This document shows, one piece after another, positions 3,471 through 62,002 of a stretch of 64,000 nucleotides of DNA. Position 1 is the stretch's first letter; the number at the start of each line of letters is the position of its first letter. The stretch is from an uncultured Verrucomicrobia subdivision 3 bacterium (GTDB taxonomy: Bacteria > Verrucomicrobiota > Verrucomicrobiia > Limisphaerales > UBA8199): assembly GCA_903913865.1 (NCBI GenBank), contig CAIWMU010000093.1:62001-126000 (forward strand), in the 5' to 3' direction. Below the pieces are notes generated by a model. That model ran no database searches. It worked only from the letters and a program-made list of their open reading frames with translations, and was not told where the DNA came from. The translations under genes and the position numbers were made by a program.

Positions 3471-4709
3471 TCACTCGGAGAGGAGTTTGTGGCAATACCA
3501 GAGCATTCTGGGGAGATGGAATGGGCCTTTCCAATGGTTCCCTTTCAGGGTTGAGGTGACGGTGCCATCCCGTTGCAGGTAGCCATACCATTCACCGTGC
3601 TCGGAATCGCTGAAGTGGCGGAAACTCCAATCGTGAACCTTCCGGTGCCATTCGGCATACCGGGCATCCCCTGTCAGCTTGAATGCGAGAAGCGTCGCGA
3701 TGATCGTTTCGTTGTGCGGCCACCAGAATTTCATGTGGTGCCAGTATTCCTGGATGGGCAGGTTCTTGAGGTCGCAGAAATAAAGAATCCCGCCATGCTG
3801 CCGGTCCCAACCCCGTTCCCACATCCAGTCGAGGATGGTGAGACCCAGTTGGATGAGGCGGGCACTGTTTCTAAGCCTGCCCTCGTGCATGATGAACCAG
3901 GCGCATTCGATGGCGTGGCCGGGATTGAGGAGTCGGCCATCAAAATGGTCGAGGATCTCCCCGTTCGGGCCGACGGTCTCCATGAGTGCCCTGAGATCCG
4001 GCTTGAGGAAGTATTTTTCGATCTGTTCTATGGAGTAGTCGATCCATCCTGTGCAAGTGCGGCCATCAACCATCCGGTCTCCAAGGTTGGCACGGATTTC
4101 CTGGGCCGTCACAATGCCGATCATGTGGGAGCCGATTCCCTGCTGGGGTCGGGTCGGCTCAAGTTTTGGCTGCATCACCCCGGGAGTGAAGCTGTAGCGC
4201 AGGTAGGTGGTGAAACGTTCGAGAGCTTCTGCGGTGGCCCCGGGTTCCGGTTCCCCATGGGATGATGCGGTGGCTCTGGCGACAGCCGCACTGGCGATGG
4301 CACCGAAGCTCTCGCTGTAAACGTAGCGGCGCATTCGCAGCGGTTTTCCATCCCGGGTGACCAGGAAATACATCTTGCCGCTTTCCGAGACACAATGGTT
4401 GCGCAGAAAGTCGTGGCAGCTTGTTGCGGCCTGAAGCCACTCCGGTCGGCGTTCGATGGTGTTGTAGAGGGTGGCGAACATCCATGCCGCCCTCCCTTGG
4501 AACCAGACCGACTTGTCGGTGTCAACGATTGAGCCATCGCGGTTGAGGGATGTCATTATCCCCCCGTGCGCAGGATCAATCCCGTGCCTGAGCCAGAAGG
4601 GTATGACGTTGTTCAGGAGGGTGCCCTGATAGGTCTCAGCGAGAGACAGATCATCCGGATGAACGGCAGGCGGAGTGCCCGCCCCATGCTGGGGAGAATC
4701 GGGGTTCAC
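3471..4709 (-). CDS. N-acylglucosamine 2-epimerase (AGE/RnBP family)
   Basis: Predicted to interconvert ManNAc and GlcNAc in the cytoplasm, the second step of the Bacteroides-type sialic acid route. The 412-residue length fits the (alpha/alpha)6-barrel AGE family. Family motifs are visible: 'NPGHAIE' (His about 265), 'WWPHNE' (about 332) and 'KGPFHLPR' (His about 398); the first and last histidines match the family's catalytic pair. The frame is open further upstream, but the GTG at 4709-4707 overlaps the TGA of the upstream sialidase (GTGA), so I take it as the start with translational coupling; no strong ribosome binding site is seen. Last gene of the minus-strand operon. A related cellobiose 2-epimerase activity cannot be excluded by sequence, but the lyase next door favours ManNAc. 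Confidence 0.88.
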   Translation of the reverse strand: MNPDSPQHGAGTPPAVHPDDLSLAETYQGTLLNNVIPFWLRHGIDPAHGGIMTSLNRDGSIVDTDKSVWFQGRAAWMFATLYNTIERRPEWLQAATSCHDFLRNHCVSESGKMYFLVTRDGKPLRMRRYVYSESFGAIASAAVARATASSHGEPEPGATAEALERFTTYLRYSFTPGVMQPKLEPTRPQQGIGSHMIGIVTAQEIRANLGDRMVDGRTCTGWIDYSIEQIEKYFLKPDLRALMETVGPNGEILDHFDGRLLNPGHAIECAWFIMHEGRLRNSARLIQLGLTILDWMWERGWDRQHGGILYFCDLKNLPIQEYWHHMKFWWPHNETIIATLLAFKLTGDARYAEWHRKVHDWSFRHFSDSEHGEWYGYLQRDGTVTSTLKGNHWKGPFHLPRMLWYCHKLLSE

Positions 4710-5875
4710 TGGTGCTTTTTGGTTTTGGCGAGGGTATCGAGCTCGGAGAGCTTCAGGTGCACGCTGGCAACGTAGGGAAGCTCGTTTTGAGTCCAATGCC
4801 CGTAGGTGGTGGTAACAAACGTTCCGTCCGGGAGACATTCCACACCGGGATAGGCGCAGTCGCCAGACTTGGTATTGTGCATCAGCCGGACCCGGTATTG
4901 ACCCTCCCTGCCTTTCAAAATGTCGTCAAAACGGCCGACCCAGCCAATCCAATCGCCTTTGGTGGCGGATTCGAGGGTGGTGTCGCGGAAGGAGATGAAC
5001 AGGCGTCCATCCGGCGCGTATTTGCCGCAGTGGCGGTCGCCGGTCAGGGCCGCCGGGAGTTCACGTGGATTGCTCCAGGTGACGCCTTCATCCTCAGAAA
5101 AGATGACGTGGGAGTTTTTGCGCCGGGAGTTTTCCCGCATGAGGACGGCGATCCGTTTTCCATTCGGGGAGCGAATCCAGCCCGGTTCGCAGAGATGGAT
5201 GTCGGAACTTTTGTAGAGTGCCCGGGGCGTTCCCCACGTGAGTCCTCCATCGTCCGACGTGGTCTGATACAGGGTAAAAACGACCGGGCTGTTTTTGACC
5301 GGAGCCGGTTGGAAGAACCGACCATCGTCATGGAACATGGCGAGGTAATGGCCCGGGCCGGTCTTGATCGGCTCAACGAAGCCCATGACGACGATTCCAC
5401 CCCAATTTCCGGCGGGGACCAGCTCACTCCATGTCATGCCGTCATCCTCGCTGTGGGCGATGCGGGCCGGGTAAAGGCCGGACCAGAGGATCAGCCTCTT
5501 TTTCCCGGATGCATCAACGACGCGGTGAATGGTGGGAGTCTCGAGGCTGGTCTCCCAGGACTTCGGGGTTGGCAACCGGCCACTCCAGGTACGGCCCCCA
5601 TCGGTGCTGCGCTTGTAGAGAATCGGCCCCTTTCCATGTCCTTTGGGATAGACGCAGAGGATCGTTTTGCCGTCCTCAAGCAGGACAGTTGTCGGGTGGC
5701 CCAGATACTGACCGGGTTCGCGATCGACGATGACCTGGCGGTTGGTCTGATCTGCCAGATCCACAAGCGGGATCGTGTATCCACGGGTCGGTGTCTGCGC
5801 CGGGGCACTGAACGCCCAGAGAAGAAAGAGTAGAACCGGGAGCGTGGCAGGAAGGGGAGGCTTATGGCTTCTCAT
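4706..5875 (-). CDS. Secreted sialidase (BNR/Asp-box, GH33-like)
   Basis: Predicted to release terminal sialic acid outside the cytoplasm. A 389-residue protein with a signal peptide (about residues 1-27, hydrophobic core then 'APAQT'). Asp boxes of the S-x-D-x-G-x-T-W type occur near 90, 142, 207 and 260, marking a six-bladed propeller. It lacks a classical 'FRIP' but has 'YLGHP' near 57, and candidate active-site residues Arg247, Arg297, Glu230 and Tyr342. This matches the shorter sialidase type common in Planctomycetes and Verrucomicrobia rather than classical NanH. It lies between the lyase (34-nt gap) and the coupled epimerase gene. Exact linkage or substrate cannot be read from sequence. 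Confidence 0.85.
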   Translation of the reverse strand: MRSHKPPLPATLPVLLFLLWAFSAPAQTPTRGYTIPLVDLADQTNRQVIVDREPGQYLGHPTTVLLEDGKTILCVYPKGHGKGPILYKRSTDGGRTWSGRLPTPKSWETSLETPTIHRVVDASGKKRLILWSGLYPARIAHSEDDGMTWSELVPAGNWGGIVVMGFVEPIKTGPGHYLAMFHDDGRFFQPAPVKNSPVVFTLYQTTSDDGGLTWGTPRALYKSSDIHLCEPGWIRSPNGKRIAVLMRENSRRKNSHVIFSEDEGVTWSNPRELPAALTGDRHCGKYAPDGRLFISFRDTTLESATKGDWIGWVGRFDDILKGREGQYRVRLMHNTKSGDCAYPGVECLPDGTFVTTTYGHWTQNELPYVASVHLKLSELDTLAKTKKHQ

Positions 5876-5909: not shown

Positions 5910-6842
5910 TCAGGACGCGCTGGTCACTGGTTTGATCCATTCAAAAAACCCCAACTGTTCGAGGTCCTGCCTGAGCCGGGCGGTTTGTTCGGTGCTGAGG
6001 TTCGAGTTGGGGAGGCGCGCCGGCCCGACATCCACCCCGAGCATCTTCATTACCGCCTTGGCGGCACTCAGATAGCCGTATCCGGCAAGGAGGGTGATCA
6101 GGCGGACGGAGCGGAATTGTGCATCCCTTGCGGCATCAAGTTTTCCGGCTGAGAAGTTCTGAAGCAGGTGATGGTAGATCGGGGCGGCGAAATTGTAACT
6201 GCTGCCCACGGCGCCCGTTGCTCCAAGGGCGAGAGCGCCGAGGAGGAATTCATCGACCCCCCACGGGATGTCGAAGGCTCCGCCCTGCTGGTGGAGGCAG
6301 GTTTGAAACGATGCGAGGTCGTAGTTGGTGAATTTGATGCCGTTGAGGGTGGGGACCTGGCGCGCTGCGGCGTCGAGGAATGCGGGCATGGAGAATTGGA
6401 CACCGGTCAATGCCGGTATGTCATAGAAATAGAAAGGGGTTGAAGGGGCCGTAGCGGCGATTGCGGCGCACCATTGGACCAGATCCGGAAGAGTGCGGGG
6501 CTTGAAATAGGAGGGGGCGAGGGCCGATATGGCGAGAGCCCCGCATTTTTCAGCATGGGCTGCCAGTTCCCGTGCATCCATGACGTTGTTCGAGCCGACA
6601 TGGACGATGAAGCGCAGGGATGAACCCTTTGTCACATTCGCCCAGCGTTCCGCCATAAGGATGCGCTCGGCGGTTGTCAGGGAGTGGCTTTCTCCAGTGC
6701 TTCCACAGATGAAGGCGGTTTGAATGCCATTTTGAACGAGGTGTGCCGCCTGCTTTTCAACAACCGGCAGGTTGAGGGCTCCGTCGCTGGTGAAAGGTGT
6801 GTGTGTGGCGGCGATGAGGCCGGGTAGTTTGATTCGTTGCAT
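5910..6842 (-). CDS. nanA: N-acetylneuraminate lyase (DHDPS/NAL family)
   Basis: Predicted to cleave N-acetylneuraminate to ManNAc and pyruvate by a Schiff-base aldolase mechanism in the cytoplasm. The 310 residues form a TIM-barrel of the DapA/NanA superfamily: 'GSTGES' at 47-52, the tyrosine of 'YDIPALTG' at 140 and the Schiff-base lysine of 'GIKFTNYD' at 170. These match E. coli NanA Tyr137 and Lys165. GSTGE-type motifs and the sialidase, epimerase and transporter neighbours favour sialate lyase over dihydrodipicolinate synthase. It is 20 nt downstream of the transporter gene and 34 nt upstream of the sialidase gene, in one operon. Confidence 0.9.
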   Translation of the reverse strand: MQRIKLPGLIAATHTPFTSDGALNLPVVEKQAAHLVQNGIQTAFICGSTGESHSLTTAERILMAERWANVTKGSSLRFIVHVGSNNVMDARELAAHAEKCGALAISALAPSYFKPRTLPDLVQWCAAIAATAPSTPFYFYDIPALTGVQFSMPAFLDAAARQVPTLNGIKFTNYDLASFQTCLHQQGGAFDIPWGVDEFLLGALALGATGAVGSSYNFAAPIYHHLLQNFSAGKLDAARDAQFRSVRLITLLAGYGYLSAAKAVMKMLGVDVGPARLPNSNLSTEQTARLRQDLEQLGFFEWIKPVTSAS

Positions 6843-6862: not shown

Positions 6863-8107
6863 TTATTGGGTTTCGAGGTCGCTTCGCGGCTTCAGCGCGA
6901 GCATCAATAGAGCTGCCAGACCCAGTCCGGCGGCTGCGATTTGAAAAACAATGGCCAGATTGAAGTGGGTGTCCCGCAGGATTCCACTGAGGTAGATGGT
7001 GGCACCGCCGACCAGACAACTGATGCAGTTGAGCAGGCCGTAGCCGGTGGCACGATAGCGTGAATCGACGATCTGGCACAACACGGGCATCATGTTGGCA
7101 TCGGAAAAGCCGCGCGCCAAACCAAAGATGACGAGCCCTGCGAGGGCCACAGAAAGAGTGTTTGAGGAGGCGGCGCAAAACAGGGCAGGTGCGGCGGCGC
7201 AGAAGCCAACGAAGGGGACAAGGGCCCGGGCTTTGACGTTCCGGCGGCTCCAGGAATCGGCCCAGATGCCCCCAACCAGAATGCCGACAAAGGATGCCGC
7301 CTGGACATAGCCGGTTGCGGAGAGTCCGGCCTGACCCAGCCCCAGTTTGAATTGCTCCCGCAGGTAGGTTGGAAGCCAGCCATTGATCCCCCAGTAGGCA
7401 AGGGCCAGAAGGCCCACATGGCACAGGAGCACAAGGAATGAGCCCTGCCGCAGCAAATTGCCGATGGCTTTGATTGGGCTCTCCCGGCGGGCAGGGGATG
7501 GGGTGACGGGCGCATCGGCTTTCCGGGGTGAGCCGGGCGAGTCCCGCAATCCGGCGAGCAGCACAATCGTGTAGCACACACCCGTGGCACCAAAAATGTA
7601 GAAGGCCGACTGCCAGTGGTAATGCTCAGCGATATAGCCACCAAGACCGCCGAGCGCCGCCCCGGCATAGACGCCGCTCATATGCAGACCGGTGGCGAGG
7701 GAACGGGTGGGGCCCTGATGGTAATCTGCAATCAGGGCAAGGGCCGCAGGAATGTAGCAGGCCTCGCTGACACCCATCAGCGCCCGGGCGATGAGCAGTT
7801 GCTCGAAGTTGGCCGCATGCCCTGTCAGCCAGGTGACTGCCGACCAGACAAACAGGCTTAGAATGATGACACGGGACCGGCCGCAGCGGTCGGCGAGGTA
7901 GCCTGCCATGGGGCTAAGGACCCCATAGACCCATAGAAAAACGGAAGTCAGAAGGCCGAATTGTGCCTCAGTCATGGGGATGCTCTCCTTCACAGCATCC
8001 CTCATGGTGGTGATCATGAGCCGGTCCAGATAATTGAGGCAGGCCACAAACCAGAGCAGGCCGACAATCAGCCACGCGCGGGAGTGGGTTGGGCGGGCAT
8101 CGCTCAT
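6863..8107 (-). CDS. MFS transporter, probable sialic acid importer
   Basis: A 414-residue major facilitator with about 12 hydrophobic helices and the MFS loop motif after helix 2 ('GYLADRCGRSR'), followed by a charged central loop ('SPARRES'). ATG at 8107-8105 overlaps the TGA of the upstream mutarotase gene (ATGA), fixing the start; the longer frame upstream would run inside that gene. Sialic acid as substrate is inferred from its place between a NanM-like mutarotase and the lyase gene, as in nanLET-type loci of Bacteroidetes. Another acidic sugar is possible. Inner-membrane location. Confidence 0.87.
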   Translation of the reverse strand: MSDARPTHSRAWLIVGLLWFVACLNYLDRLMITTMRDAVKESIPMTEAQFGLLTSVFLWVYGVLSPMAGYLADRCGRSRVIILSLFVWSAVTWLTGHAANFEQLLIARALMGVSEACYIPAALALIADYHQGPTRSLATGLHMSGVYAGAALGGLGGYIAEHYHWQSAFYIFGATGVCYTIVLLAGLRDSPGSPRKADAPVTPSPARRESPIKAIGNLLRQGSFLVLLCHVGLLALAYWGINGWLPTYLREQFKLGLGQAGLSATGYVQAASFVGILVGGIWADSWSRRNVKARALVPFVGFCAAAPALFCAASSNTLSVALAGLVIFGLARGFSDANMMPVLCQIVDSRYRATGYGLLNCISCLVGGATIYLSGILRDTHFNLAIVFQIAAAGLGLAALLMLALKPRSDLETQ

Positions 8108-9210
8108 TTGGATCGCTCCGTCGAAGGATCCGGGCGCAGCATCCAGACCTGCGGGGATCGCACACCGGGACGCATCTCGCCGCTGGGCAGGACCCAGGCT
8201 CCGTTCCACTCGACAGTGGGAAGGGTGGCCCGCGAGGCTGGCACCTCGCCGAATGAAACCCAGTTTGTGGAGGCAAGGTCCAGAGCCAGAATGTGGCTTG
8301 GAAATCCGGGGTGCTTCTCAGGAGTCACCTTCCCGGCCAGAGAGCCATCATCACCTCCGGCTAGCAACAGCATGGAATGGATGACCGGTGCGGGAGAGGG
8401 TGCGGCGACGCTTGGTCGCGGGAGGTTCGGAAGCGGGTGCCATCCGCTGGAAGGATCGTAGCGCCAGGCATCGAGCAGGTAGGCGCGTGAAATCTGACCG
8501 TTTTTTGGTCGCAAGGCCGCACCGCCGATCAGGTAGAAACTGGCATTTGCCGCAGCAGCAACTGGGAGAATTCTGGGTTCGCCGGGGCAGGGGGGCAGTT
8601 CCTCCCATCGGGGATTGGGTCGGCTCAGATCCAGGGCAAAGAACCGGCTGGTTGCGGCCTGCTCCCCGGGCTGTTCCGAACCGCAGCAAAGATAGGCAGT
8701 TGACCCCAGGAACGCTCCCGCGCCGTTGGCCAGGGGGATTGGCAGCGGAGGGAGCGGCTTCACACTGAGTTGATCCCCCGTGATGGAGAGGATGAACGTA
8801 TCAGGGTGGTGGCGCTCGGAATCGCTGCCGCCCACACAGAGGAGGCCCCCGGGGGTGGATGCTGAAAATCCGTAACCCAGCGGGCGGGGAAGCTTGCCGA
8901 TGGATCGCCATGATCCGGTTTCCGATTTGAGTGCCCAGACAGCATCGTGCCAGACTTTGCGTCCCCCTTCCCAGGGCATCCTGTCCGGGAAATTGGCTCC
9001 CCCGGCCACGATCAGTGTGCCATTGCAGGTCCCGGCAAATGCCCCGGCCACGCCGTTGGTATCCGGGAGTGGCGGGAGCTGGGACCAATGGAGGCGGGCC
9101 CGGGTCGGGTCTGGCTGGGGCGTGTCGGAATTAGCCGGGCCCGCTTCTAGACACATTTGTGCGCTGGCGATGGTGGTGGTGGCAAGCATTGTCAGGGTTC
9201 GAAAGGACAT
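8104..9210 (-). CDS. nanM: Kelch-type N-acetylneuraminate mutarotase (NanM/YjhT-like)
   Basis: Predicted periplasmic beta-propeller that speeds conversion of the alpha-anomer of sialic acid released by sialidases to the beta-anomer. A 368-residue protein with a signal peptide ('MSFRTLTMLATTTIASA'), then kelch repeats: 'VAGGANFPD...MPWEGG' near the N-terminus (typical of this family), 'CVGGSDSE', 'LIGGAA' and 'LAGGDD'. Start ATG 9210 is preferred because the longer open frame would overlap the upstream gene and lacks a signal peptide. It begins 13 nt after the esterase-sialidase stop and overlaps the MFS gene by ATGA. Confidence 0.85.
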   Translation of the reverse strand: MSFRTLTMLATTTIASAQMCLEAGPANSDTPQPDPTRARLHWSQLPPLPDTNGVAGAFAGTCNGTLIVAGGANFPDRMPWEGGRKVWHDAVWALKSETGSWRSIGKLPRPLGYGFSASTPGGLLCVGGSDSERHHPDTFILSITGDQLSVKPLPPLPIPLANGAGAFLGSTAYLCCGSEQPGEQAATSRFFALDLSRPNPRWEELPPCPGEPRILPVAAAANASFYLIGGAALRPKNGQISRAYLLDAWRYDPSSGWHPLPNLPRPSVAAPSPAPVIHSMLLLAGGDDGSLAGKVTPEKHPGFPSHILALDLASTNWVSFGEVPASRATLPTVEWNGAWVLPSGEMRPGVRSPQVWMLRPDPSTERSK

Positions 9211-9223
9211 CGTGCGCTTCAGC

Positions 9224-12200
9224 TCAGTGTGTCTGCGATATGCGGAGCCGAAAGTAGCCGCTTTTGTTGGTGTTGGCAGCAGGAATTTCAACCGGGGTTC
9301 CCTCCGGTGGATTCGTGATGTTCGCAAATTGGACCCAGGAACCGGTTGTGATGCCGGTGCGATTTTCGACGATGTAAGTGCGGTTCGTGGCGGGCTGGAA
9401 CCAGAGCATCGGTGTGCTGTTGGTTCCCGGGGTGATCTTGAACTGCGGGCGGCTTTCACTGTTGCCCGGTTCGGTTCCCGCCAGGAACTCCTCCTGATTG
9501 CTGTATCCGTCGTGATCGGGGTCGGCTCCGGGACCCGAGATGGACGGGTTCATGAGTTGGGGCGGGGTGAACCTGGATGCCTTCCACTCCTCAAACGGCG
9601 GGAGGAAATCGTTGCCCGCAGTGATTTCCCGGATTGAACGCCATGTGAAAGAGAGGCTGCCGTAGGGGTCCTTTTCAAAGATCAGACCAATCTCCCCCGA
9701 GGCCAGACGGGTCACGGATGAGTAGGCGGATCCAGCTGCATAGACCTGATTGCTCACCGGCCATGTGGATCCTTCGTCGTAGCTCAGGTGGAAGCTCATG
9801 TTGACCCGGGATGAGATGTGGGTCGCGCTTGCGTGAAGGATCCTGCTCCGGTCGCCATCATTCGTCGTGGTGAGACGATAGATGTTCCCCTGGCAGCCGG
9901 GATCGGGAAGATAGGGGGGGATGGTTGTGTCGGAGAACGGGGTGCCCCAGGTGATACCCGCGTCCTGGCTCCGGCTGAAGGTCCTCCGTCCGGAAGTCGC
10001 AAAATTGTTGTCCCGCATGGAGGCGATCAGCCCACCCCCGGCTGTTTCGGCCATCTGAACCTCCCCGCCCCCGATGCCTGAGATCCCGCCGCGTTGCCAT
10101 GTTGCGCCATGGTCATCGCTGTAAATGCAGAGGGAGGAGGATGTGGCGGCGTAGATATAGACCGGGAAAATCAACCGGCCTGCGCGGGGACCGCTGCTCA
10201 TCTGGATGCCGTTCCCAGGGCCTGCCAGAAATTCGCCGGTGGCTGGACGCAAGCCCGGATTGGACCGCTCCAGATCAATTGCTGGGGACCACGTCGCTCC
10301 GTCGTCGTCACTGTTGCGCAGTTCCAGCTTGATCCTGCGGCTGCCGCTCACGCCGCCGTTATCGTACAGCGTCCATATCCTGCCGGTCACCTGATCCACC
10401 AGCATGGCAGCATCCCCGGCCGCCACGCGCTGGATGGAGGTTGCGCCGTAGAATGGATAGTCATCCACATCAGCGGGGTCGCTACCGTAGTTGGCGATGA
10501 TCTGGAGAGGCTCCCAGGATCGCCCGTTGTCAAAACTGCGTTTGCAGACGAGATCGAGGGGAGTGGGGATGTCCCCGCAACTGCCGATGCGTCCATCGGC
10601 GACGGCGATCACAGTCCCGTTTGTGCTCGTGACGATGCCCGGGATGCGGAAACAGGTGTAGCCGGACTCGCCTGCGGCGAAGATCGTGCTGAAGGGGGGC
10701 GCGGTGGATGCGGGCAGGGTGTTGGTGTCATCCACCACCCCCGTCCATTTGGAGGAGAGATAGGCTTCAATGTTGGTACGCGTGGCATCCGGAAGGGCAG
10801 AGTCGAACACCAGCAACTCAGCGACATCCGCCTTGATTCCGAGCGCCTGGGAGGCGTTTGCACCGACCATCAGTCCCGGCATGGCTCCGTTCGTCGGGAG
10901 TGGAACATCCCCTGCAAGGACCCCGCCGATGAAGTGCTGAAAACGGGCCCCCGCCGGATTGGTGCGCACGAGAAAAGAGTGAACCTCCCAGAGGTTGGTC
11001 GAGACCGGGGCAGTGGGGGTTCCCCCGTTTGAGCCATAGGCAGTGGAGGTGCTCCCGGAAGTGGCGACATGCCAGTAGCCCGTTCTTACCTGCACACGGG
11101 TCAGTCCGGGTGTGTAGGAGGTGGCGTCGAACAGGAACCCCTGCGTCCGGGCATCCATCACGCGTGCCATCGTGATCAGGGTGCGGTCGGTTGAAATGAT
11201 GCCGAAATTTGCCTTTTGCGCCCAGATGCCATCGGTTCCCTCGAAACGGACCGCCCCAGCAGGGGTGCCATCCGGCAGGCGGAGGTAGGACTTTTTGGGT
11301 GCGCCCGTTAGTTGCGCAAGATCCCGAGCTGCCTGACTGATGCCGGTGACCGTTCTTGAACCGGAGTTGGTCCACCGCGTCACAGTTCTGAGGTCCGAGG
11401 CAATCTCCAGACCGTCATCACCACGGAACCAGGCATAGACGATGGAGGGATCGGGACTCCGGGACTCGGGGTGCCACGTTAGCGCCATTCGTGAGGTCAA
11501 AGTGGAACGTTCCTCATCGGAAAGTTCCCGGTTGTAAACAAGTATTTCTCCGATATCGACAGGGAGGAATCGCTGGGCCTGGGCGTTGGCGCCAATGATG
11601 AATCCGCCGAGACCGTTCTGGTCCGGATCCAGAAAATTGGTGATGGCGAGCCCATCCACCCAGTGCCGCACCCGGGTGCCATTGTTGGTGCGGGTGAAGT
11701 CGAACGCGTGAACCTGCCAGGAACCGGTGGTGATGGGGGTGGTGGGGGAGTCGGCATTGGCGGCGTTGGCAATGGGAGGGGCCTGCAAACCGGCCTGCCA
11801 GGACCCATCACGCACCTGTGCGCGGGTCATGCCGCTGGATGTTGATCCGTCGAAAAGGAACCCATCCGTTCGGCCGGGAAGGCGGAGCGCGAAGAGGATT
11901 GTTCGGGAGTTGGTGAGGGCCCCGAAGTTGGCGGAGGTGCTCCAGGCTGCCTGTGTTCCCTCAAGGCGGATGCAGGCGCGCGACAGTCCCCCCTGAAAGA
12001 TGCTGCTGGCGAGGACGGGTTGTCCAACGATCTGCGTGAGGTCGGCGTTGGTGGCGCCATTTGCCAGATTGTCCCACCGGGAGACCGGCAGACCTGCTTT
12101 GGGAACCACCCCGTGGTCACCGCGATACCATGCGTGAAGGCCGGTTAGAATCGGGATCGAAGAATTTGTCCAGACCCCGAGCGAAAAGGATTCCGAGGCC

Positions 12201-13048
12201 ATGCGCTCACCCATGATGAGGAGACTGTCGGCATCGTAGTGGACATTCAAGCCATCCAGATTATGGGTGGAAAGACCTGCCGATTGGGCAAAGCCGATAT
12301 CCTGTCTGGCGGCTGCGAGTGCCAGCTGCTTCTGGGTTGTGACCAGGCGATTGCCGGAGGAATCACTGGCGATCTGCCCCAGAATTCCGACCATCGATGA
12401 GGCGTTGGGCAGGTCGCTCCGCAAGTTTTGGAGCAGTTCGGAAAATCGGTTTCCCGCTTCGGATGCCTCGGTGGCGTCGTTGCTCTCACCCTGCAGGTAG
12501 AGAAGTCCCGCGACCCGGCAGTCTGTGAAACCAGCCGGCAGTGTTGTGGTGGCCTCAAGCGCTGTCTTGACCACCTTTTCATACGTATGGTGGTCCGCGT
12601 TGGTCTTGTTCCAGAAGGAGTTGCCCCCTCCGCCCCTGCTTGCCTTGATGATGCCGAAATCCCTGCAACCTGCATCCCAAAGCATTCGTGCGAAGCCCAC
12701 TTCCGGTCCCCAGTGGTTCTGGCTCAGGGCGTAGTAGCCACCCAGCTGCGGGCAGATGTTGGTCCAGCCAGCCGAGGTGCCCAAGGCAAGATCCCCCGCG
12801 ATTGTGCCATCTGCAGTGTTGTCCCAGAAAAAGGGGATGGTCCCGTCTGCCGCATGCGCGGCCATCCGGGGCAGCAGCATGTTCGTCGTGGTGGTGGCCG
12901 GGGTCCCCAGGCTGTTCGACTGCCCGGTAAGGATGAACAGGCTCAGGGTGCGGGCTGCAGCAGGCGTCGTGAGCAGGCCTGCCATCAACAGCCATGGCAG
13001 GAGGCTCCGGTGGTGCGGGACCGTTGGATGGGTGGCTTTGGTTGTCAA
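9224..13048 (-). CDS. Fused sialate O-acetylesterase / tandem LamG-like / GH33 sialidase
   Basis: A 1,274-residue secreted enzyme. Signal peptide about 1-32. Residues 35-295 form an SGNH/SASA esterase with 'TGQSNS' (Ser44), 'YLQGESN' and a C-terminal 'DGLNVH' (His270). Two similar LamG-like concanavalin domains follow (about 300-530 and 536-770, each starting 'AWYRGD' or 'AWFRGD'). Residues 783-1145 are a GH33 sialidase with 'FRIP' (Arg801), acid/base Asp818, Arg1012, Arg1081, nucleophile Tyr1109 and Glu996, plus five Asp boxes. A calcium-type 'DPDHDGYSNQEE' segment lies near 1177 and a beta-rich tail ends the protein. It should remove O-acetyl groups from sialoglycans and then release the sialic acid, feeding the downstream catabolic genes. 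Confidence 0.92.
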   Translation of the reverse strand: MTTKATHPTVPHHRSLLPWLLMAGLLTTPAAARTLSLFILTGQSNSLGTPATTTTNMLLPRMAAHAADGTIPFFWDNTADGTIAGDLALGTSAGWTNICPQLGGYYALSQNHWGPEVGFARMLWDAGCRDFGIIKASRGGGGNSFWNKTNADHHTYEKVVKTALEATTTLPAGFTDCRVAGLLYLQGESNDATEASEAGNRFSELLQNLRSDLPNASSMVGILGQIASDSSGNRLVTTQKQLALAAARQDIGFAQSAGLSTHNLDGLNVHYDADSLLIMGERMASESFSLGVWTNSSIPILTGLHAWYRGDHGVVPKAGLPVSRWDNLANGATNADLTQIVGQPVLASSIFQGGLSRACIRLEGTQAAWSTSANFGALTNSRTILFALRLPGRTDGFLFDGSTSSGMTRAQVRDGSWQAGLQAPPIANAANADSPTTPITTGSWQVHAFDFTRTNNGTRVRHWVDGLAITNFLDPDQNGLGGFIIGANAQAQRFLPVDIGEILVYNRELSDEERSTLTSRMALTWHPESRSPDPSIVYAWFRGDDGLEIASDLRTVTRWTNSGSRTVTGISQAARDLAQLTGAPKKSYLRLPDGTPAGAVRFEGTDGIWAQKANFGIISTDRTLITMARVMDARTQGFLFDATSYTPGLTRVQVRTGYWHVATSGSTSTAYGSNGGTPTAPVSTNLWEVHSFLVRTNPAGARFQHFIGGVLAGDVPLPTNGAMPGLMVGANASQALGIKADVAELLVFDSALPDATRTNIEAYLSSKWTGVVDDTNTLPASTAPPFSTIFAAGESGYTCFRIPGIVTSTNGTVIAVADGRIGSCGDIPTPLDLVCKRSFDNGRSWEPLQIIANYGSDPADVDDYPFYGATSIQRVAAGDAAMLVDQVTGRIWTLYDNGGVSGSRRIKLELRNSDDDGATWSPAIDLERSNPGLRPATGEFLAGPGNGIQMSSGPRAGRLIFPVYIYAATSSSLCIYSDDHGATWQRGGISGIGGGEVQMAETAGGGLIASMRDNNFATSGRRTFSRSQDAGITWGTPFSDTTIPPYLPDPGCQGNIYRLTTTNDGDRSRILHASATHISSRVNMSFHLSYDEGSTWPVSNQVYAAGSAYSSVTRLASGEIGLIFEKDPYGSLSFTWRSIREITAGNDFLPPFEEWKASRFTPPQLMNPSISGPGADPDHDGYSNQEEFLAGTEPGNSESRPQFKITPGTNSTPMLWFQPATNRTYIVENRTGITTGSWVQFANITNPPEGTPVEIPAANTNKSGYFRLRISQTH

Positions 13049-13193: not shown

Positions 13194-13226
13194 CACCCCG
13201 CAGCGATGAACCATCGCTGCGGGGTG
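13194..13226 (-). terminator. Perfect 15-bp hairpin between two giant secreted-protein genes
   Basis: CACCCCGCAGCGATG (13194-13208) and CATCGCTGCGGGGTG (13212-13226) form a perfect 15-bp stem with a 3-nt loop, 32 nt after the beta-strand repeat protein gene (minus strand). The T-rich tail (GTTTTAATT) is on the plus-strand side, so on the minus strand it is either a terminator without a good U-tract or an mRNA-stabilising structure. A second inverted repeat, CCTGCCGG/CCGGCAGG, sits at 13132-13165. Confidence 0.5.
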
Positions 13227-13257: not shown

Positions 13258-16200
13258 TCAGGGCATCGGCGGATAGACCAGGCGGATGAACACCGAGGGG
13301 TTCGCGGGGGTGACCGGAATCACAGCCTGGTTCGTGGTGGTGGATCCGGGCCAAGCCGACCAGTTGGTGGACAGGCCGGTGGTGAGGCTGTTTGTCTGAA
13401 CCTGCAGTTGCCATCCGATACTCGACTCAGGCCAGCTGATCTCCAGATTTTCACCGTTGCGGTGGGCTGCAAGAGTGGTCGGTAGGACCGGTGCGCTTAC
13501 GACGGTGATGCTGCCGTTCAGGGCGAGCGTGTTCGACCACCCCAGACCAAAGGGCAGGGAGGGCAGGGCGATGTTGGTGAAGGCCATGCTGAGCGGGCTT
13601 CCTGAGAACAGCTGGAAGGTGTCTCCTGCCTGCAGGGCCTCGCCACTGTTCGTCACGACCAAAGATCCACTCAGGGAAACGGCTGCCAGCCCTGCCAGAC
13701 GATCACTGTTCACCGGTGTGGCAAGACGGTCCAACTCAATCAAGGTGGTCCCTTTGACAGTCGCCGGACCTGAGATGGTCAGCGTCCCCAACCCGTTGCC
13801 CGGGGAGAGGATTGTTCCTTCGTTTAGCACAGCTGCCGCGTTGATCGTTCCTGATCCGCCAAGACCGCCCGGAGAGTTCACTGTCACCACGCTGGTGAGG
13901 CTGCCGTCCACCAGCAGCATCCCGTCCGATACCGTGGTCGGTCCCGTGTAGGTGTTGATGCCACCCAGAGTTTGCCGTCCGCTCCCGATCTTGGAGATGC
14001 TGACCAGACCGTTGCCGTTTTCGATCACGCCGGCGTAAGCGGCTGTCGTTCCATTGGTGCCGGAGAGTCCGACGGTGAGCGTGACCGGGGTTGCGGAACC
14101 GTTTCGCACGAGACCGGAGTTGTTGCCCCCATCTCCCAGACCGCCGATGGAGGGACTGAACCCGTTCAGGTCAAGAGTTCCGGAGGACACGGAGACGATG
14201 TTTTGGGAGCCGGCGCCGCCACTGACCCCGATGGATGCCGTGCGGTCCAAACCGAGGGCGCGAATGTGGTTTACCCGCAGTGTTCCCCCGCTGACCAGGA
14301 CCAGGGGGAAGTTGTTCGTGGCTGAGATTTGCAGCGTTCCCGTTCCGGCCTTCTCGATCGTGGTATTACGACCATCCTGATTCGTGACGATTCCCGACAC
14401 GATAATCCCCATTGTGGCGGTGAGGTTGACTTCGGTGGTGGTGGCGGCACTGTCGCCGATATCGAAGGTGCGCGTTGTGGGGCCTGAGGATCCTGATCCC
14501 ATAAAGGGGGTGGAGATCAGCAGCGCGCCGGGATCGTTGGCCGCGTCATAGATGAGGGTGGATGCCACGCCGACGCCCCAGCCGACGTTTGTCGTGGCGC
14601 TGCTGTCCTGGAATGTGGTGGTTTTGCCCGCAACCCCGCCGAAGGTGATCGGCCCGTCGAACAGGATCACCGGGCGTCCGATGCTGGCGGTGCCGTTGGT
14701 GAAATTGGGGTCATAGGAGGCCTGGCCGTTGATATCCACGATTCCATCCCGGAGGGTGAACGGCTTGGCAAAGTAGCCGGAAGTGCCCGATGTGGTCGCG
14801 CCCCGGCCCAGACCGGCGCCATGGCCATAAACCACCTTGCCAGCGTTGATAACTGTGCCGCCGGTGTAGGAGTTGGAGCCGCGCATGTAGAGCGTTCCCG
14901 CGCTGTTCTTGGTGAGCGAACCTGCGCCGATGACCAGGTTGGTCATGGCAAGGGTGGTGCCTGTGGCGACGTTCACTGTGCCGCCTCCCGCCGCGAGAGT
15001 GATGCCGTTGTTGGTGGACAGATTCACGTTTGCGAGCGTGGCCAGAGTGCCACCGTTGAAGGTGATGCGGTCCGCAAGGAAGGTGGGTGCCAGACCGAGC
15101 GCCGAGACATTGGTGATGGCTAGGGTTCCGTTGATGAGGCTGATCCGGCCCACAAAGTCATTTGAAGTGACCAACGAGAGGGATCCTGTTCCGTCCTTGA
15201 TGAGTGTGCCGCCTCCTGAAAGCCGGCCTGTTCCGGCGAAGGTGTAATCGCCCGAGGCATTCACCGTGACGCTGGCGGGCTGGAGCACCGTCGTGATGTT
15301 GATTGCGGGGCTTCTGGATCCGGTGTCGTCGAAGGTGACGTTGTCGTTGTTGAAGAACACATCGGGTGTGGCTCCGTTGATCCAGTTCATCGTTGCGGCA
15401 TCCCAGTTGTTTGCGGTGTTGTCCCCCTTCCAGACCAGGTTTCCATCCCCGATGACCACAAGTTTCAGCCGGTTCGGGCTGGAGGAGGTGTCGTAGGCGA
15501 GGGTGTAGGACTGCCGGACGCCTGATGTCGGGAGACCTGCGAGTGCAAAGTTGGCCACGGTGCCCTTGAGAGAGCCGTAGACTTCGAGGAGCGTGTATGA
15601 TCCGCCTGAGAGCCCTGCGGTGTTGTTAATCTGCACCGTGGTGATGCCGGAGGGGGACACATCGCCATTGATCATCATCAGGTCACTGCTGGCGGTGTTG
15701 ATGTCGAGCAGCAACATCCCTCCGCCTGAAAGGTTGAGGTTGTTGTTGAAGGTAAGGGTGTTCACCGAATTGGATCCGCCGGGGACGATCACGCTGCCGG
15801 TGCCTGCTGTGATGGATCCGTTGATCGTGGCGATGGAACCGTTTATTCCCGAGGATCCGACGATTTTCTGGTTGGTGTTCAGGAAGAGGCCGGAGGGAAG
15901 AGCTGAGACATCGAGAGTGGCCGAGACGAGGGAGACGCTGGTGGGAGGGGCCAGAAAGATCACCGGGCTGTTGCTCAGGGATGCTCCGGTGGCGAGGGTC
16001 AGTGTGCCCATGCTCACGATTGTATTTCCAGAATAGGTGTTTTGGGCACCGAAGGTGATCGTTTGTGCCTCAGCACCCGCCAGGGAGCCGCCAATGCGAA
16101 CGCTGCCTGTTCCGTGAATCGGGTTGTTGACCTGTAGGGAGTCGGTCCGCAGGAATGTCAGGGTGCCATTGTTGGTGATGACTGCGCTGCCGAGGGTTCC

Positions 16201-17163
16201 TCCCGTGGTGAGGCCCAGGATGGCCGTGGCAGCACTATCCCCGGGAGTTCCTCCCACCCGGACTTTTGCTGTGCTGGAAATCGTAATGGTTCCACTCAGC
16301 GTGTTCTCGGCGGTCAGGATGAAGCCCAGATCGGTGCTGGTCATGCCCGTGCCGGTATCCGCGAACACAAGGTTCCCGGAGCCGGAAATAACCCCCTGCA
16401 ATTTCAGGTAACGTCCGGTGCCGGAAGTGTTCTTGTTGTCGATGGTCGAAACGAGACCGGGCGCGACATCAATGGGAGTCGTCCAGGTCCAGTTGCCCTG
16501 CCAGGGGGCCATGGTGCCGCCGCCGAGGGTGATTGAGTTGCCTGTTCCCCATGCGGAGCGGCCATTGCGGATGTTTTTCGCCAGAACACCCGATCCGATG
16601 GTGAGGCGGCCGGTGTAGTTGGTGTTTCCGCCTGCGTCATCAAATCCAACACTTCCTGAGCCGCCCGGTTGCATGCTGACGAGGGCGGTCCCGGTGCCGG
16701 AATTCGTGAAGGTGAGCGCGGCGCTGCCGTGGAGCCCGCGACCTGCGTTGATGCGGTTCAGGTTCAGTGTCCTTCCACCGGCGATGTCCCAGACCTGATC
16801 GGCCTTGATCCAGACGCTGGGGTTGAGGGTCAGGTCCACGGTCGCCCCTGCCATATTGAGGCCTGCAGCACCATTGGTGAGCCAGACTGCGGGGAGGTTT
16901 GTTTCGATGGTGACGAGACCGGCCGGATTGGCGATGCGCAGGCCGAGCCAGTCGAGATTGTCGCCGAGTTTCGCCGTGTTGGTGGTGGCGACGGTGTTAT
17001 CCCAGACGGCCACATCAGCGGCGGTTGGGGCAACCCCGGCCGCCCAACTGGCGGGCTGGTTGAGGTCGGTGGTGTTGTTTGCCTTGAGCACATCGGCGGT
17101 CCAGCCCGACGGGGCCGTTGCCAGAAGGGCAAGGAGCATGGGGATGCGGCTTGATTGTTTCAT
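13258..17163 (-). CDS. Autotransporter-associated beta-strand repeat protein
   Basis: A 1,301-residue secreted protein. Signal peptide about 1-23 ('LLALLATAPSGWTA'). The body is low-complexity Gly/Thr/Asn-rich beta-helix sequence with passenger-associated repeats such as 'SAGTLYMRGSNSYTGGT', 'GSGRQTLGGINTYTGPTT' and 'GTGTLQISATNNF'. There is no C-terminal outer-membrane barrel; it ends with a verrucomicrobial tail ('LEISWPESSIGWQLQVQTN'). This family is numerous in Verrucomicrobia and thought to be surface-exposed or secreted, possibly binding glycans; no enzyme activity is recognisable. Its place upstream of the esterase-sialidase suggests a role in holding or recognising the sialoglycan substrate, which is inference. 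Confidence 0.82.
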   Translation of the reverse strand: MKQSSRIPMLLALLATAPSGWTADVLKANNTTDLNQPASWAAGVAPTAADVAVWDNTVATTNTAKLGDNLDWLGLRIANPAGLVTIETNLPAVWLTNGAAGLNMAGATVDLTLNPSVWIKADQVWDIAGGRTLNLNRINAGRGLHGSAALTFTNSGTGTALVSMQPGGSGSVGFDDAGGNTNYTGRLTIGSGVLAKNIRNGRSAWGTGNSITLGGGTMAPWQGNWTWTTPIDVAPGLVSTIDNKNTSGTGRYLKLQGVISGSGNLVFADTGTGMTSTDLGFILTAENTLSGTITISSTAKVRVGGTPGDSAATAILGLTTGGTLGSAVITNNGTLTFLRTDSLQVNNPIHGTGSVRIGGSLAGAEAQTITFGAQNTYSGNTIVSMGTLTLATGASLSNSPVIFLAPPTSVSLVSATLDVSALPSGLFLNTNQKIVGSSGINGSIATINGSITAGTGSVIVPGGSNSVNTLTFNNNLNLSGGGMLLLDINTASSDLMMINGDVSPSGITTVQINNTAGLSGGSYTLLEVYGSLKGTVANFALAGLPTSGVRQSYTLAYDTSSSPNRLKLVVIGDGNLVWKGDNTANNWDAATMNWINGATPDVFFNNDNVTFDDTGSRSPAINITTVLQPASVTVNASGDYTFAGTGRLSGGGTLIKDGTGSLSLVTSNDFVGRISLINGTLAITNVSALGLAPTFLADRITFNGGTLATLANVNLSTNNGITLAAGGGTVNVATGTTLAMTNLVIGAGSLTKNSAGTLYMRGSNSYTGGTVINAGKVVYGHGAGLGRGATTSGTSGYFAKPFTLRDGIVDINGQASYDPNFTNGTASIGRPVILFDGPITFGGVAGKTTTFQDSSATTNVGWGVGVASTLIYDAANDPGALLISTPFMGSGSSGPTTRTFDIGDSAATTTEVNLTATMGIIVSGIVTNQDGRNTTIEKAGTGTLQISATNNFPLVLVSGGTLRVNHIRALGLDRTASIGVSGGAGSQNIVSVSSGTLDLNGFSPSIGGLGDGGNNSGLVRNGSATPVTLTVGLSGTNGTTAAYAGVIENGNGLVSISKIGSGRQTLGGINTYTGPTTVSDGMLLVDGSLTSVVTVNSPGGLGGSGTINAAAVLNEGTILSPGNGLGTLTISGPATVKGTTLIELDRLATPVNSDRLAGLAAVSLSGSLVVTNSGEALQAGDTFQLFSGSPLSMAFTNIALPSLPFGLGWSNTLALNGSITVVSAPVLPTTLAAHRNGENLEISWPESSIGWQLQVQTNSLTTGLSTNWSAWPGSTTTNQAVIPVTPANPSVFIRLVYPPMP

Positions 17164-17262: not shown

Positions 17263-17991
17263 TCATTGGCGCCGGTCCATGGTGTAGCTGTTGGTGGACC
17301 AGACGCCGACGCCATAACGCATCAGGCTGGCATGACCATCGGCGAACACCGTATTCCAGCGGTTGTCGCGAATTTTCGTATGCCGGTATTCGAGATCGGG
17401 CGCCAGGGTGCCGTTCCAGACCGGGAAGAAGGCCCCATTCTCGGACATCACAACCATGCGGGTGACGCTGCGGATTTCACTGGCTTTGACACTGGGGTTT
17501 TCCAGTCCGTCTAGAATCTTCGTGATGGTGTATTGGGCCTCGTAGGGGCTGGCGCCTCCGTGGGTGTTAGCGCTGTAGGAGGATCCGTAGGTGGTGTAGC
17601 TGTTGTTGGTCCCGCCACCTGTCAGGGGGCGGTCATTCGGACAGAGGGCGCTTTTGATTTCGGAGTTCGTGGTGAACTTGCCGAGGTACTGGTTGAGGGG
17701 CCTCTTCGTGGCATCCAGATTGAGGTAGCCTCCCGAACTTCCGGCCCGTCCCAGCCAGCCATACATTGTCCCGTTGATCTTCGGGGGGAAGGTGTCCTGG
17801 TAATCATGGATATACATGGAGACGGCGAGCCCCACCTGTTTGAAATTATTCAGGCAGGAAACCTGCTGCGCTTTCCCCTTGGCGTGGGAAAGAGCCGGCA
17901 GCAGCATCGCTGCGAGAATGGCGATGATCGCGATCACGACAAGCAGTTCGATCAGCGTGAAGGCTTTCGCGCCCGAGCGTCCCGAGTTCAC
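17263..17991 (-). CDS. Prepilin-like protein (N-terminal methylation motif, type II pseudopilin family)
   Basis: A 242-residue protein starting with a type IV prepilin segment: basic leader, '[21 protein letters not shown]' type helix at about residues 10-30 with the conserved Glu at +5 after the cleavage site. The globular part ends with '[15 protein letters not shown]', the DG motif seen in large prepilin-like families of Planctomycetes and Verrucomicrobia. These are usually orphan pseudopilins near secreted polysaccharide-degrading enzymes; their role in secretion or surface display is unproven. It lies between the regulator and the beta-strand repeat gene, with gaps near 95-100 nt on both sides, so it may or may not share their transcript. 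Confidence 0.85.
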
Positions 17992-18085: not shown

Positions 18086-19171
18086 TCAGCCCAGGGTGTC
18101 CCCTTTGACGAAGCGGGGCATGAGGCGGTTGTCGGTCGGGGCCAGTCGGCCTTCGCGGGCGAGATCCGTGGCAAGTTTTGAGACTTTCTGGGCAAAAGCC
18201 CGGGGGTTGGAGGAATAGCGGGCCACCGAGGGGATGGCATGGTCCAGAAAGAAGTCGTCATCGCGCGAGATCAGAGCCACATCACCCGGCACCTTGATTC
18301 CCTTGCGCATCAGGTGGCCAAGGGTTGTGAGTGCGTGCATGGGGCGCGAGACGAGGATGGCGGTGGGCGGGTTTGGTTTCCGGAGCAGTGAGTCGAGTCG
18401 CGTGCAGATGCCTTTGACAGTCCCATCGTGCCTCAGGATGGTTCCGGCCTGGGTGCCGATGTCCCGGCCGTTGGCAGCCTCAAGAAACCCCTGTTCGCTC
18501 TCCAGTTCTCCGCCTGTGCCGGTCTCGGGGTTTAGCAGGACCATGTGCGTGTGGCCCTTGGCCCTGAAGAGGCCTGCGGCGTGGCGGCATGTGGCTTTGT
18601 AATCGGTATCTACCCCCGGCAGTTCGATTCCGGGATGGCGGGAGCCGGTGATGACGCAGGGGAGCTTCTGATCCGCGAAGTGCTTCTGCATCTGGTGCGT
18701 GCTCTGGTAGAGGACCCAGGCGGCGGGGCGGACGCTGCCGGTAAGCTGGTTGAGGTGGTGCGGGTTCCTGGTGGTATAGGCAATCCGGTTGACGTGGATT
18801 TCCAGGTGGAAACCGACATCCCCAAGCTGCTCCCGCAGACCGTCGATCCAGAACACAGCAAAGCCGGGAAGGGCTTGAAGCGGGGCGGGGGTGAGCAGGA
18901 TGACGCGGTTCTCCTGGGCGGCGGTCGGGGGGGCCTTGTCCGGCAGGATGATCTCCCTGCGGCGCCCCTGTCCAACCCGGAGCAATCCCTGCCGCTCCAG
19001 TTGGGAAAGTGCCCCGCGAAGGGTGACACGGCTGACGTGGAGCAATCCGCACAACTCATGCTCCCCCGGGAGTAGATGCCGCCACCGGCCCGCAAGCATC
19101 TCCTCCTGAAGAATGCGGGCGGTCTGGGCCACCAGCGATGAACGCTGGGGGACATTTCGCAGGAACGGCAT
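18086..19171 (-). CDS. GntR-type transcription regulator with LacI-like sugar-binding domain
   Basis: A 361-residue cytoplasmic regulator. Residues about 10-75 are a GntR winged helix-turn-helix ('LPGEHELCGLLHVSRVTLRGAL', 'LERQGLLRVGQGRRR'). Residues about 88-355 resemble the periplasmic-binding-protein-like effector domain of LacI/GalR proteins ('GVDTDYKATCRHAAGLF', 'LVSRPMHALTTLGHLMRKG', 'VPGDVALISRDDD'). The pairing is that of AraR-like GntR regulators. It is the most upstream minus-strand gene of the sialic acid locus and is the likely local regulator; the effector (sialic acid or an amino sugar) is a guess. No clear operator palindrome was identified in 17992-18085. Confidence 0.85.
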   Translation of the reverse strand: MPFLRNVPQRSSLVAQTARILQEEMLAGRWRHLLPGEHELCGLLHVSRVTLRGALSQLERQGLLRVGQGRRREIILPDKAPPTAAQENRVILLTPAPLQALPGFAVFWIDGLREQLGDVGFHLEIHVNRIAYTTRNPHHLNQLTGSVRPAAWVLYQSTHQMQKHFADQKLPCVITGSRHPGIELPGVDTDYKATCRHAAGLFRAKGHTHMVLLNPETGTGGELESEQGFLEAANGRDIGTQAGTILRHDGTVKGICTRLDSLLRKPNPPTAILVSRPMHALTTLGHLMRKGIKVPGDVALISRDDDFFLDHAIPSVARYSSNPRAFAQKVSKLATDLAREGRLAPTDNRLMPRFVKGDTLG

Positions 19172-19202: not shown

Positions 19203-20306
19203 TCAAGGAGACAATCTGCTGAGTGCGTAGGCCGTTATGGATGACTGCGATGGAATGTTCGTAAAGTCTCGCTGCTCGAACGAATAACTGCCCGACAGGC
19301 GTTCGTGGGCCGATTCGGCCACCGCTATCGTCCCCCCTTCCGTGAGGGAGCCGATCAGAAATGCCTCGCGGACGGTTTCTCCCCAGAGATCATAGCTGAA
19401 CTTCTTGCGGCCAATCACCCCGGCAACAATCGGTCCGGTGCTGATTCCGATTCGGATGCGGATGGATGTGCTGTAGGCGTTGTTCAATCGTGCGATTTCC
19501 GCACAGAGATCCAATGCCAGAGCTGCGCTGGCTTCGCAATGGTCAGTGGTCGTTCCCCCCAGGCCGCCCGCGGCCATGTAGGCATCCCCGATGGTCTTGA
19601 TTTTTTCCAACCCGTGCTTTTCAACAAGCCCGTCGAATGCCGAGAAAATCTCGTCCAGCAGGCAGACTACCTGCTCCGGGCCAAAGTGGGCGAGAAGCGA
19701 GGAGAATCCGACAAGGTCTGCGACGAGGACCGTGGCATCGGGGTGGTGGTCGGCTATGTTGACCTCGCCCGCCTTCATTCGTTGGGCGATGGCAGCAGGG
19801 AGAATATTAAGGAGCAAGCGCTCCGAGTTCTCCTTTTCCTCATTTAATTGCAGGAACAGGTGGCGGGTTTGGACAGCGTTCCTGACCCGAAGGATCAGGT
19901 CCTGAAGATCGACAGGCTTGTTCAGGAAGTCGTTCGCTCCGGCTGCGATTCCGACCATCCTTTCCTTCCGCTCGGACAGGGCGGTGACGATCAGGACGGG
20001 AATGGGAGCGGTTCTTGGATCCTTTTTCAACCGTCGGCAGACTTCAAATCCATCCATCCCGGGCATCATCACATCCAGCAGGATGGCATCGGGAAGGCGT
20101 TCCGCCACCCGTTGGAGGGCTTGTTCTCCGTTCTCCGCCTCCACAATTTCGAAGTCCCGGGCCTCAAGGGGGTCCCTGAGCAGGGTGCGGTTTTGTTCAT
20201 CGTCATCGACGATGAGGATCCTCCCATTGGGGCGTTGGGGGGTGGTTTGGGCACCCGGTGATGTTGCCGCTCCAGGAGAATTGGGGCTGGGATTTGCAGT
20301 TTCCAT
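19203..20306 (-). CDS. Response regulator with class III nucleotide cyclase-like output domain
   Basis: A 367-residue protein. Receiver at about 27-150 with 'LIVDDDE', phospho-acceptor in 'LLDVMMPGMDG' and Lys in 'NKPVD'. A short helical linker leads to a class III cyclase homology domain (about 185-360). Both metal-binding aspartates are present ('VADLVGFSS', 'TIGDAYMAAGG') and the adenine-type Lys/Asp pair is seen ('EKIKTIGD', 'SYDLWG'). However, the segment after YDLWG reads 'ETVREAFLI' where active cyclases have N and R (N-T-V-N-x-A-S-R pattern), so the ribose Asn and the transition-state Arg appear lost. Start ATG 20306, 11 nt after the lone receiver gene. It could be an inactive cyclase-like output or an unusual cyclase. 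Confidence 0.85.
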   Translation of the reverse strand: METANPSPNSPGAATSPGAQTTPQRPNGRILIVDDDEQNRTLLRDPLEARDFEIVEAENGEQALQRVAERLPDAILLDVMMPGMDGFEVCRRLKKDPRTAPIPVLIVTALSERKERMVGIAAGANDFLNKPVDLQDLILRVRNAVQTRHLFLQLNEEKENSERLLLNILPAAIAQRMKAGEVNIADHHPDATVLVADLVGFSSLLAHFGPEQVVCLLDEIFSAFDGLVEKHGLEKIKTIGDAYMAAGGLGGTTTDHCEASAALALDLCAEIARLNNAYSTSIRIRIGISTGPIVAGVIGRKKFSYDLWGETVREAFLIGSLTEGGTIAVAESAHERLSGSYSFEQRDFTNIPSQSSITAYALSRLSP

Positions 20307-20317
20307 TGTGATCAGGG

Positions 20318-61998: not shown

Positions 61999-62002
61999 AC
62001 AG

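Follow-up and report, generated by a model that had tools for sequence, protein, structure and literature searches.

How does a single polypeptide from an uncultured verrucomicrobium come to carry both a carbohydrate esterase and a sialidase, and what would such a protein do? The question is raised by a stretch of 64,000 nucleotides (the window) from an uncultured Verrucomicrobia subdivision 3 bacterium, covering positions 62,001 to 126,000 of contig CAIWMU010000093.1 in assembly GCA_903913865.1. An open reading frame at 9224-13048 on the reverse strand of the window encodes a protein of 1274 amino acids, composed of a signal peptide, a SASA/CE6-like esterase, two LamG-like domains (LamG1 and LamG2), a GH33 sialidase, a calcium-type segment and a C-terminal domain. 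A sequence-only reading had described one polypeptide in which a sialate O-acetylesterase and a sialidase are linked by two LamG-like domains. The reading frame and the Pfam and PDB searches bear out the single chain with both types of catalytic domain, which makes it an esterase-sialidase fusion, and judged by their residues both domains appear intact; S44, H270, R801, D818, R1012, R1081, E996 and Y1109 stand where that reading had placed them. The protein is very probably a secreted enzyme that decaps sialoglycans in two steps, its activities being predicted from sequence.

The gene starts with TTG. Between the preceding stop codon and this TTG lie 11 sense codons, and because none of them is ATG, GTG or TTG, it is the sole common start codon before the hydrophobic core; the signal peptide (residues 1-33, 12950-13048) was assigned by eye. 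The aligned orthologs, which share 51-57% identity with the window fusion in their best segment, likewise have a hydrophobic N-terminus ahead of a T-L-x-x-F motif. At the other end, residues 1160-1274 (9227-9571) hold the calcium-type (TSP3-like) segment DPDHDGYSNQEEFLAGTEP, read directly in the sequence at about residues 1170-1195, and the C-terminal domain; in a relative (L072), Pfam TSP3_bac matches the equivalent part of the C-terminus.

Catalytic domains of the fusion protein

The GH33 sialidase domain (residues 788-1150, 9599-10687) is matched by Pfam BNR_2 over residues 836-1120 with 83.6 bits (cut-off 31.4) and contains five Asp-boxes. A phmmer search of the PDB returned GH33 sialidases over residues 799-1136 (best match 7lbu, E 2.5e-36), and a search with a 25-row profile gave 4fj6 as the best match (E 1.7e-107). 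Throughout an alignment of 29 GH33 rows, Arg801, Glu996, Arg1012, Arg1081 and Tyr1109 are invariant in all rows having the respective column. Asp818, which the sequence-only reading had taken for the acid/base residue, was the wrong choice: position 818 holds Asp in 23 rows and Glu in four, whereas position 826 is Asp in all 27 rows with the column (columns 818 and 826 are missing from two split rows). On this conservation the acid/base residue is assigned to Asp826. It lies 25 residues past the first arginine, R801, which is the spacing of R37 and D62 in the Salmonella sialidase. Close to R801 and Asp826 lie Cys799 and Cys824, both present in nine and both absent in five of the 14 rows of types A, B and C defined below. 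The absence is counted as a single event because the five rows form one clade, and the pattern suggests a possible C799–C824 disulphide.

The esterase domain (residues 34-298, 12155-12949), an SGNH-type domain, is matched by Pfam SASA (PF03629) over residues 36-286 with 75.6 bits (cut-off 24.8). The serine S44 of a GQSN motif, the QGES block Q186-S189, D265 and H270 are all present. Asp265 and His270 are invariant in all 17 aligned esterase rows; the serine position is Ser in 14 rows, the window included, Ala in one (G102) and gapped in two, both of them second copies of the domain. The usual spacing of the last two residues is D-x2-H; that of the window esterase is D-x4-H.

The mechanism proposed for the presumably exported protein begins with the SGNH esterase (Ser44, His270 and probably Asp265), which would strip sialidase-blocking O-acetyl groups, with O-9 as the most likely position. 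The sialic acid would then be freed by the retaining GH33 propeller (Arg801/1012/1081, Tyr1109/Glu996, Asp826). Each catalytic domain is accompanied by its own ConA/LamG-type domain, which would probably keep the enzyme bound to its glycan, the role of CBM40 in other sialidases. The released sialic acid would undergo mutarotation by NanM, be imported by a major facilitator superfamily (MFS) transporter, be split by the lyase to N-acetylmannosamine (ManNAc) and be converted by the epimerase to N-acetylglucosamine (GlcNAc), with a GntR-type regulator in control.

LamG-like domains and descent of the fusion

LamG1 (residues 302-526, 11471-12145) and LamG2 (residues 536-768, 10745-11443) are named LamG-like only, since Pfam Laminin_G_3 (PF13385) stays under its cut-off of 27.6 bits both over residues 379-513 (22.0 bits) and when LamG1 is scored alone (27.2 bits); the family matches 14 of 27 homologous domains at E <= 0.01. 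The best 60 of the 66 rows of the phmmer search of the PDB include none with its best stretch in either domain. AlphaFold2 was run with six rows each on the esterase–LamG1 and LamG2–sialidase parts (predicted local distance difference test, pLDDT, 51 and 28). Only the esterase–LamG1 model entered the fold searches, and only the esterase fold is drawn from it, as support. Foldseek matched the CBM40 of NanJ (2v73) at E 6.9e-4, with this poor model of pLDDT 51; the list returned by VIA consists mostly of rows for the esterase part, so that the missing CBM40 carries no meaning there.

The two domains had been called duplicates. They are indeed paralogous, with 78 of 221 aligned residues identical, a local score of 340 where 500 shuffles reached no more than 80, and a BLAST E of 5e-41 in a one-sequence comparison. 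The date is another matter: in a tree of the 27 domains, a branch with 100/98 support sets the 11 LamG2 domains, which come from types A and C, apart from the other 16, which are the LamG1 domains, those of another order included. LamG1 thus belongs to the esterase, LamG2 belongs to the sialidase, and recent in-place copying is unlikely. The split appears older than the fusion, and the tree argues against a recent tandem duplication.

A full-length profile was searched at E <= 1e-100 against 320 genomes of the window's order, and 14 matched. Seven have the complete architecture (type A; the gene of G236 runs off its contig and that of G239 is without the calcium-type segment), three are without LamG2 (type B) and four have LamG2–sialidase without the esterase (type C). 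A relative from the window's own genus (87% complete) gave no fusion match at this threshold. From a sample of 387 genomes of the phylum, partly overlapping the first and searched at E <= 1e-60, eight were matched: the window's own, two with a GH33 match only and five of a type V, which belong to another order of the same class, have chains of 1183–1936 amino acids in the order esterase–LamG–other–GH33 and also pass 1e-100. The two longest chains (1924 and 1936 amino acids; L072, 7253-13024, and L073, 8058-13865) have three esterase-type domains preceding one sialidase, the series being SASA, GDSL esterase, a second SASA, LamG and GH33; the second SASA copies read G-S-G-N and G-A-G-N, with Gly in place of the serine.

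In the GH33 tree, the domains of types A, B and C group in a single clade and those of type V in a separate one, each with 100/100 support, and an approximately unbiased (AU) test rejected holding the two groups together (p = 0.0014), the group tested having been picked after the tree had been inspected. The esterase–LamG1 parts of type V are 40–48% identical to that of the window. Related esterase–LamG1 parts thus accompany separate GH33 clades, so that sialidases of two lineages are partners of the esterase–LamG unit. Besides the late choice of the tested group, long branches tell against this history: both the GH33 and the LamG tree give warnings of them, and they meet in the LamG tree, L047_1149 among them.

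Type B forms one clade nested with two type A rows in the GH33 tree, which suggests that LamG2 was lost once. Because type C appears at two separate positions, the esterase arm has been gained or lost two or more times; the trees are unrooted and leave gain and loss indistinguishable. These unrooted trees are consistent with a fusion that would have arisen when an esterase-LamG1 unit was joined to a LamG2-sialidase unit. In one type C genome, G265, an esterase is encoded by a gene of its own, similar to the N-terminal half of the type V proteins of about 1.9 thousand amino acids.

The sialic-acid locus and the PATR-repeat protein

The genes around the fusion lie on its own strand. Downstream follow a NanM-type kelch mutarotase (8104-9459; its best family matches begin at residue 119, and the real start is probably internal), an MFS transporter that is a probable sialic acid importer (6863-8209), an N-acetylneuraminate lyase-like aldolase of the DHDPS family (5910-6842), a sialidase-like BNR-repeat protein (4706-5875) and an N-acylglucosamine 2-epimerase, the putative ManNAc to GlcNAc enzyme (3471-4838). 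Upstream lie a protein with PATR (autotransporter-strand) repeats (13258-17163), a type IV pilin-like protein (N_methyl, DUF1559; 17263-17991) and a GntR-type regulator with a Peripla_BP_3 domain (18086-19171). With neighbouring genes for a lyase, an AGE-type epimerase, a transporter and a mutarotase, this is by family a sialic-acid catabolic locus of the Tenacibaculum maritimum type. In the same order, 20 kb were read at each of eight further fusion loci, and at that of G033 also sequence further upstream; a regulator homolog occurs in all eight, and seven contain one or more of the four catabolic genes. The ninth, in G236, lies on a contig of 5.3 kb, and the PATR and pilin genes of that genome are on another small contig.

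The PATR protein of the window has 1301 amino acids, a signal peptide recognized by eye and PATR repeats (PF12951, 51.6 bits, cut-off 27). Family scans at E <= 0.01 gave no C-terminal beta-barrel family, and on these matches the protein is not classed as a classical autotransporter; it may be a long beta-solenoid. Residues 100–420, a domain of about 320 residues here called PATRdom (15904-16866), were used as a query at E <= 1e-15, with up to seven (order) or five (phylum) candidates scored per genome. NCBIfam recognizes only a 32-residue repeat in this domain, and a PDB search gave nothing better than E 0.68.

PATRdom was found in 10 of the 320 order genomes, and these coincide with the 10 that carry the esterase fusion; the four type C genomes and the remaining 306 gave no match. 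The phylum sample yielded seven of 387: the window's own genome, all five of type V and G331, the only one among 381 genomes outside those with the fusion. The G331 protein has a PEP-CTERM-like end and is encoded within a sialic-acid locus, next to genes for a lyase, a transporter, a mutarotase, an epimerase, a GH33 protein and a regulator; this genome gave no esterase–LamG match at 1e-8. Going by these matches, PATRdom appears to be a marker of the fusion system, present in 15 of 15 fusion genomes and in one other, there also in a sialic-acid locus. G265, which has its separate esterase gene and no PATRdom, tells against a tie to the esterase as such. Exact tests of the co-occurrence gave p = 4e-19 (order), 2e-12 (phylum) and 0.001 (types A and B versus C), with relatedness ignored. 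Since a single genus (g100) supplies five of the 10 order genomes, the number of independent events is small; genomes with and without PATRdom occur inside each of the families coded f1 and f26.

It is quite possible, short of probable, that the PATR protein is unrelated in function and merely carried in the same gene block. PATRdom is on the contig of the fusion and within 14 kb of it in nine of the 10 order genomes and three of the five type V genomes, and the patchy distribution, together with the same-genus relative that has neither fusion nor PATRdom, is what block transfer would produce. Physical linkage accounts for part of the co-occurrence. Against mere carriage stand the other two type V genomes, G497 and G596, in which co-occurrence persists with PATRdom on another contig (beside a regulator gene in G497 and a lyase gene in G596), as well as the one genome that has PATRdom and no fusion, where the domain again sits among sialic-acid genes. 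Tentatively, and with more doubt than confidence, the PATR protein may instead capture or display O-acetylated sialoglycans at the cell surface while the fusion works on the held glycan, the pair forming a two-part machine of Verrucomicrobiota; a role as functional counterpart of SusD is part of the same tentative proposal and would be by analogy. A literature search for these repeats in Verrucomicrobia returned no paper, and within the literature and database searches made PATRdom has no name.

A search of the window's own genome with the pilin-like protein gave 74 matches at E <= 1e-10. Its specific C-terminal part occurs in 28 of the 320 genomes (all 10 with the fusion, all four of type C and 14 others), which rules out that it shares the strict pattern of PATRdom. 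The PATR repeat has 43 matches in 14 reading frames of the window's genome, and PATR–pilin pairs as a general arrangement were rejected: with positions compared by eye, no PATR frame has another pilin match closer than about 2 kb. A perfect hairpin of 15 pairs at 13194-13226 lies between the PATR gene and the fusion gene, its T-rich tail being on the plus strand, in the sense opposing the genes; a scan for promoters and terminators yielded no more than shuffled sequences did.

The BNR protein is without the F-R-I-P arginine motif, as judged by eye on the window copy. Its sialidase-like propeller recurs in sialic-acid clusters at L047 11070-12248, L101 17163-18335 and L074 10353-13121, in the last fused to a GH33 domain. 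GH181 was considered for it and stands as an unconfirmed candidate, the family being drawn on from descriptions only. Upstream of the cluster lie a response regulator–adenylate/guanylate cyclase fusion (19203-20420) and a MASE1-PAS hybrid histidine kinase (20728-23727).

Esterase substrate, known fusions and significance

The sialate specificity that had been claimed for the esterase went too far, as it rests on context. Foldseek, with the low-confidence esterase–LamG1 model (pLDDT 51), ranked the sialate esterase SIAE first. VIA, with the same model, placed the plant putative esterase 2apj (Z 16.7), the acetylxylan esterase 1zmb (16.4) and CE20 (15.8) somewhat above SIAE (14.2), and this is the first of several points that weigh against a two-step sialoglycan enzyme. 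The SASA/CE6 family also covers esterases acting on other sugars. Lyase and epimerase score under their NCBIfam equivalog cut-offs, and the 20-kb stretch read in G240 (L050) shows none of the four catabolic genes. The type B ortholog of G102 (L051, 3594-7052, reverse strand) has GEAN for GQSN, with Ala at the position of Ser44; that esterase is probably dead or mis-assembled, the change being a natural Ser-to-Ala form or an assembly error.

The esterase could accordingly deacetylate the underlying glycan or another polysaccharide instead of sialate, the fusion then serving a mixed substrate. Such an enzyme would fit the span of PF03629 and of the fold matches, which takes in CE6 acetylxylan and CE20 esterases besides SIAE, and also the PDB search with a 15-row esterase–LamG1 profile, in which 2apj was the best match (E 0.0014) and the sole other row, 7q40 (E 0.02), resembles chance. 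It is nevertheless unlikely, given that the neighbourhood of the fusion is one of sialic-acid catabolism, that the esterase-LamG unit is joined to two different GH33 lineages and that two published esterase-GH33 fusions sit in sialic-acid contexts, as far as the excerpts cited below describe them. That one catalytic domain is a substrate-binding pseudoenzyme, leaving in effect a single enzyme, is very improbable: esterase copies do decay (Ser to Ala in L051, Ser to Gly in the second SASA of L072 and L073), but the GQSN serine is intact in the window and 13 further rows of 17, Asp265 and His270 hold in every row, and the GH33 residues are intact.

The preferred reading, a two-step sialoglycan-decapping enzyme, has precedents, which are compared here from excerpts of the cited papers. 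SiaA of T. maritimum (MARIT_2686) consists of a signal peptide, CE6, CBM40, two GH33 domains and a C-terminal sorting domain and adjoins lyase, epimerase and NanM/transporter genes (PMC5561996). It thus resembles the window fusion in signal peptide, CE6-type esterase, GH33, C-terminal domain and catabolic neighbours; it differs in its single CBM40, duplicated GH33, type IX sorting domain and origin from Bacteroidota, where the window protein has two LamG-like domains and one GH33, and its locus has a SusC/SusD pair in place of the PATR and pilin genes. SiaBb1 of Bifidobacterium bifidum is reported to be an esterase/sialidase fusion that removes 9-O-acetyl groups (PMC10017367, PMC7232152), taking them off before cutting, and O-acetylated Neu5Ac is generally sialidase-resistant (PMC10017367). 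It likewise joins an O-acetylesterase and GH33 in one chain, from Bifidobacterium as opposed to Verrucomicrobiota, the likeness being drawn on the presence of both domain types.

NanB, NanJ and the B. thetaiotaomicron sialidase 4bbw share, in the descriptions consulted, the GH33 catalytic domain and residues next to a CBM40 or proposed CBM40, and are without an esterase. EstA, PvSAE, NanS and mammalian SIAE are SGNH-type esterases of O-acetyl sialic acids (PMC10017367) and, unlike the window domain, separate proteins; SIAE is also the low-confidence fold match of the window esterase. GH33 together with a sialic acid transporter is described from freshwater Verrucomicrobia (PMC5673642), and a locus for a type IV-like pilus that attaches to glycans is described from Akkermansiaceae, in a paper whose excerpt mentions no PATR partner of a sialidase (PMC13174399). 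Among the papers retrieved, in excerpt, by a literature search for CE6–GH33 fusions, none contained such a fusion.

Calling the domain order unusual was therefore an overstatement, given that SiaA and SiaBb1 already fuse esterase and sialidase. The full-length profile search does find the exact order in only seven of 320 order genomes; the kind of fusion, by the published excerpts, is not new. The window protein is of the same kind as SiaBb1 and SiaA, and what is new is the module type, the lineage, the accompanying genes and the fact that the fusion recurs with a second lineage of GH33.

O-acetylation shields sialic acids from most sialidases, and a fused deprotecting and cutting enzyme would be a one-protein solution. 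The present fusion extends esterase-sialidase fusions to Verrucomicrobiota, with an esterase–LamG unit joined to different sialidase lineages, and its natural forms, which have two LamG domains, only one, no esterase or a lost serine, are available for probing the role of each module. The PATR partner, which lies beyond the original question, is the part most worth following up; if functional, the co-occurring domain would indicate a glycan-capture system other than SusC/D.

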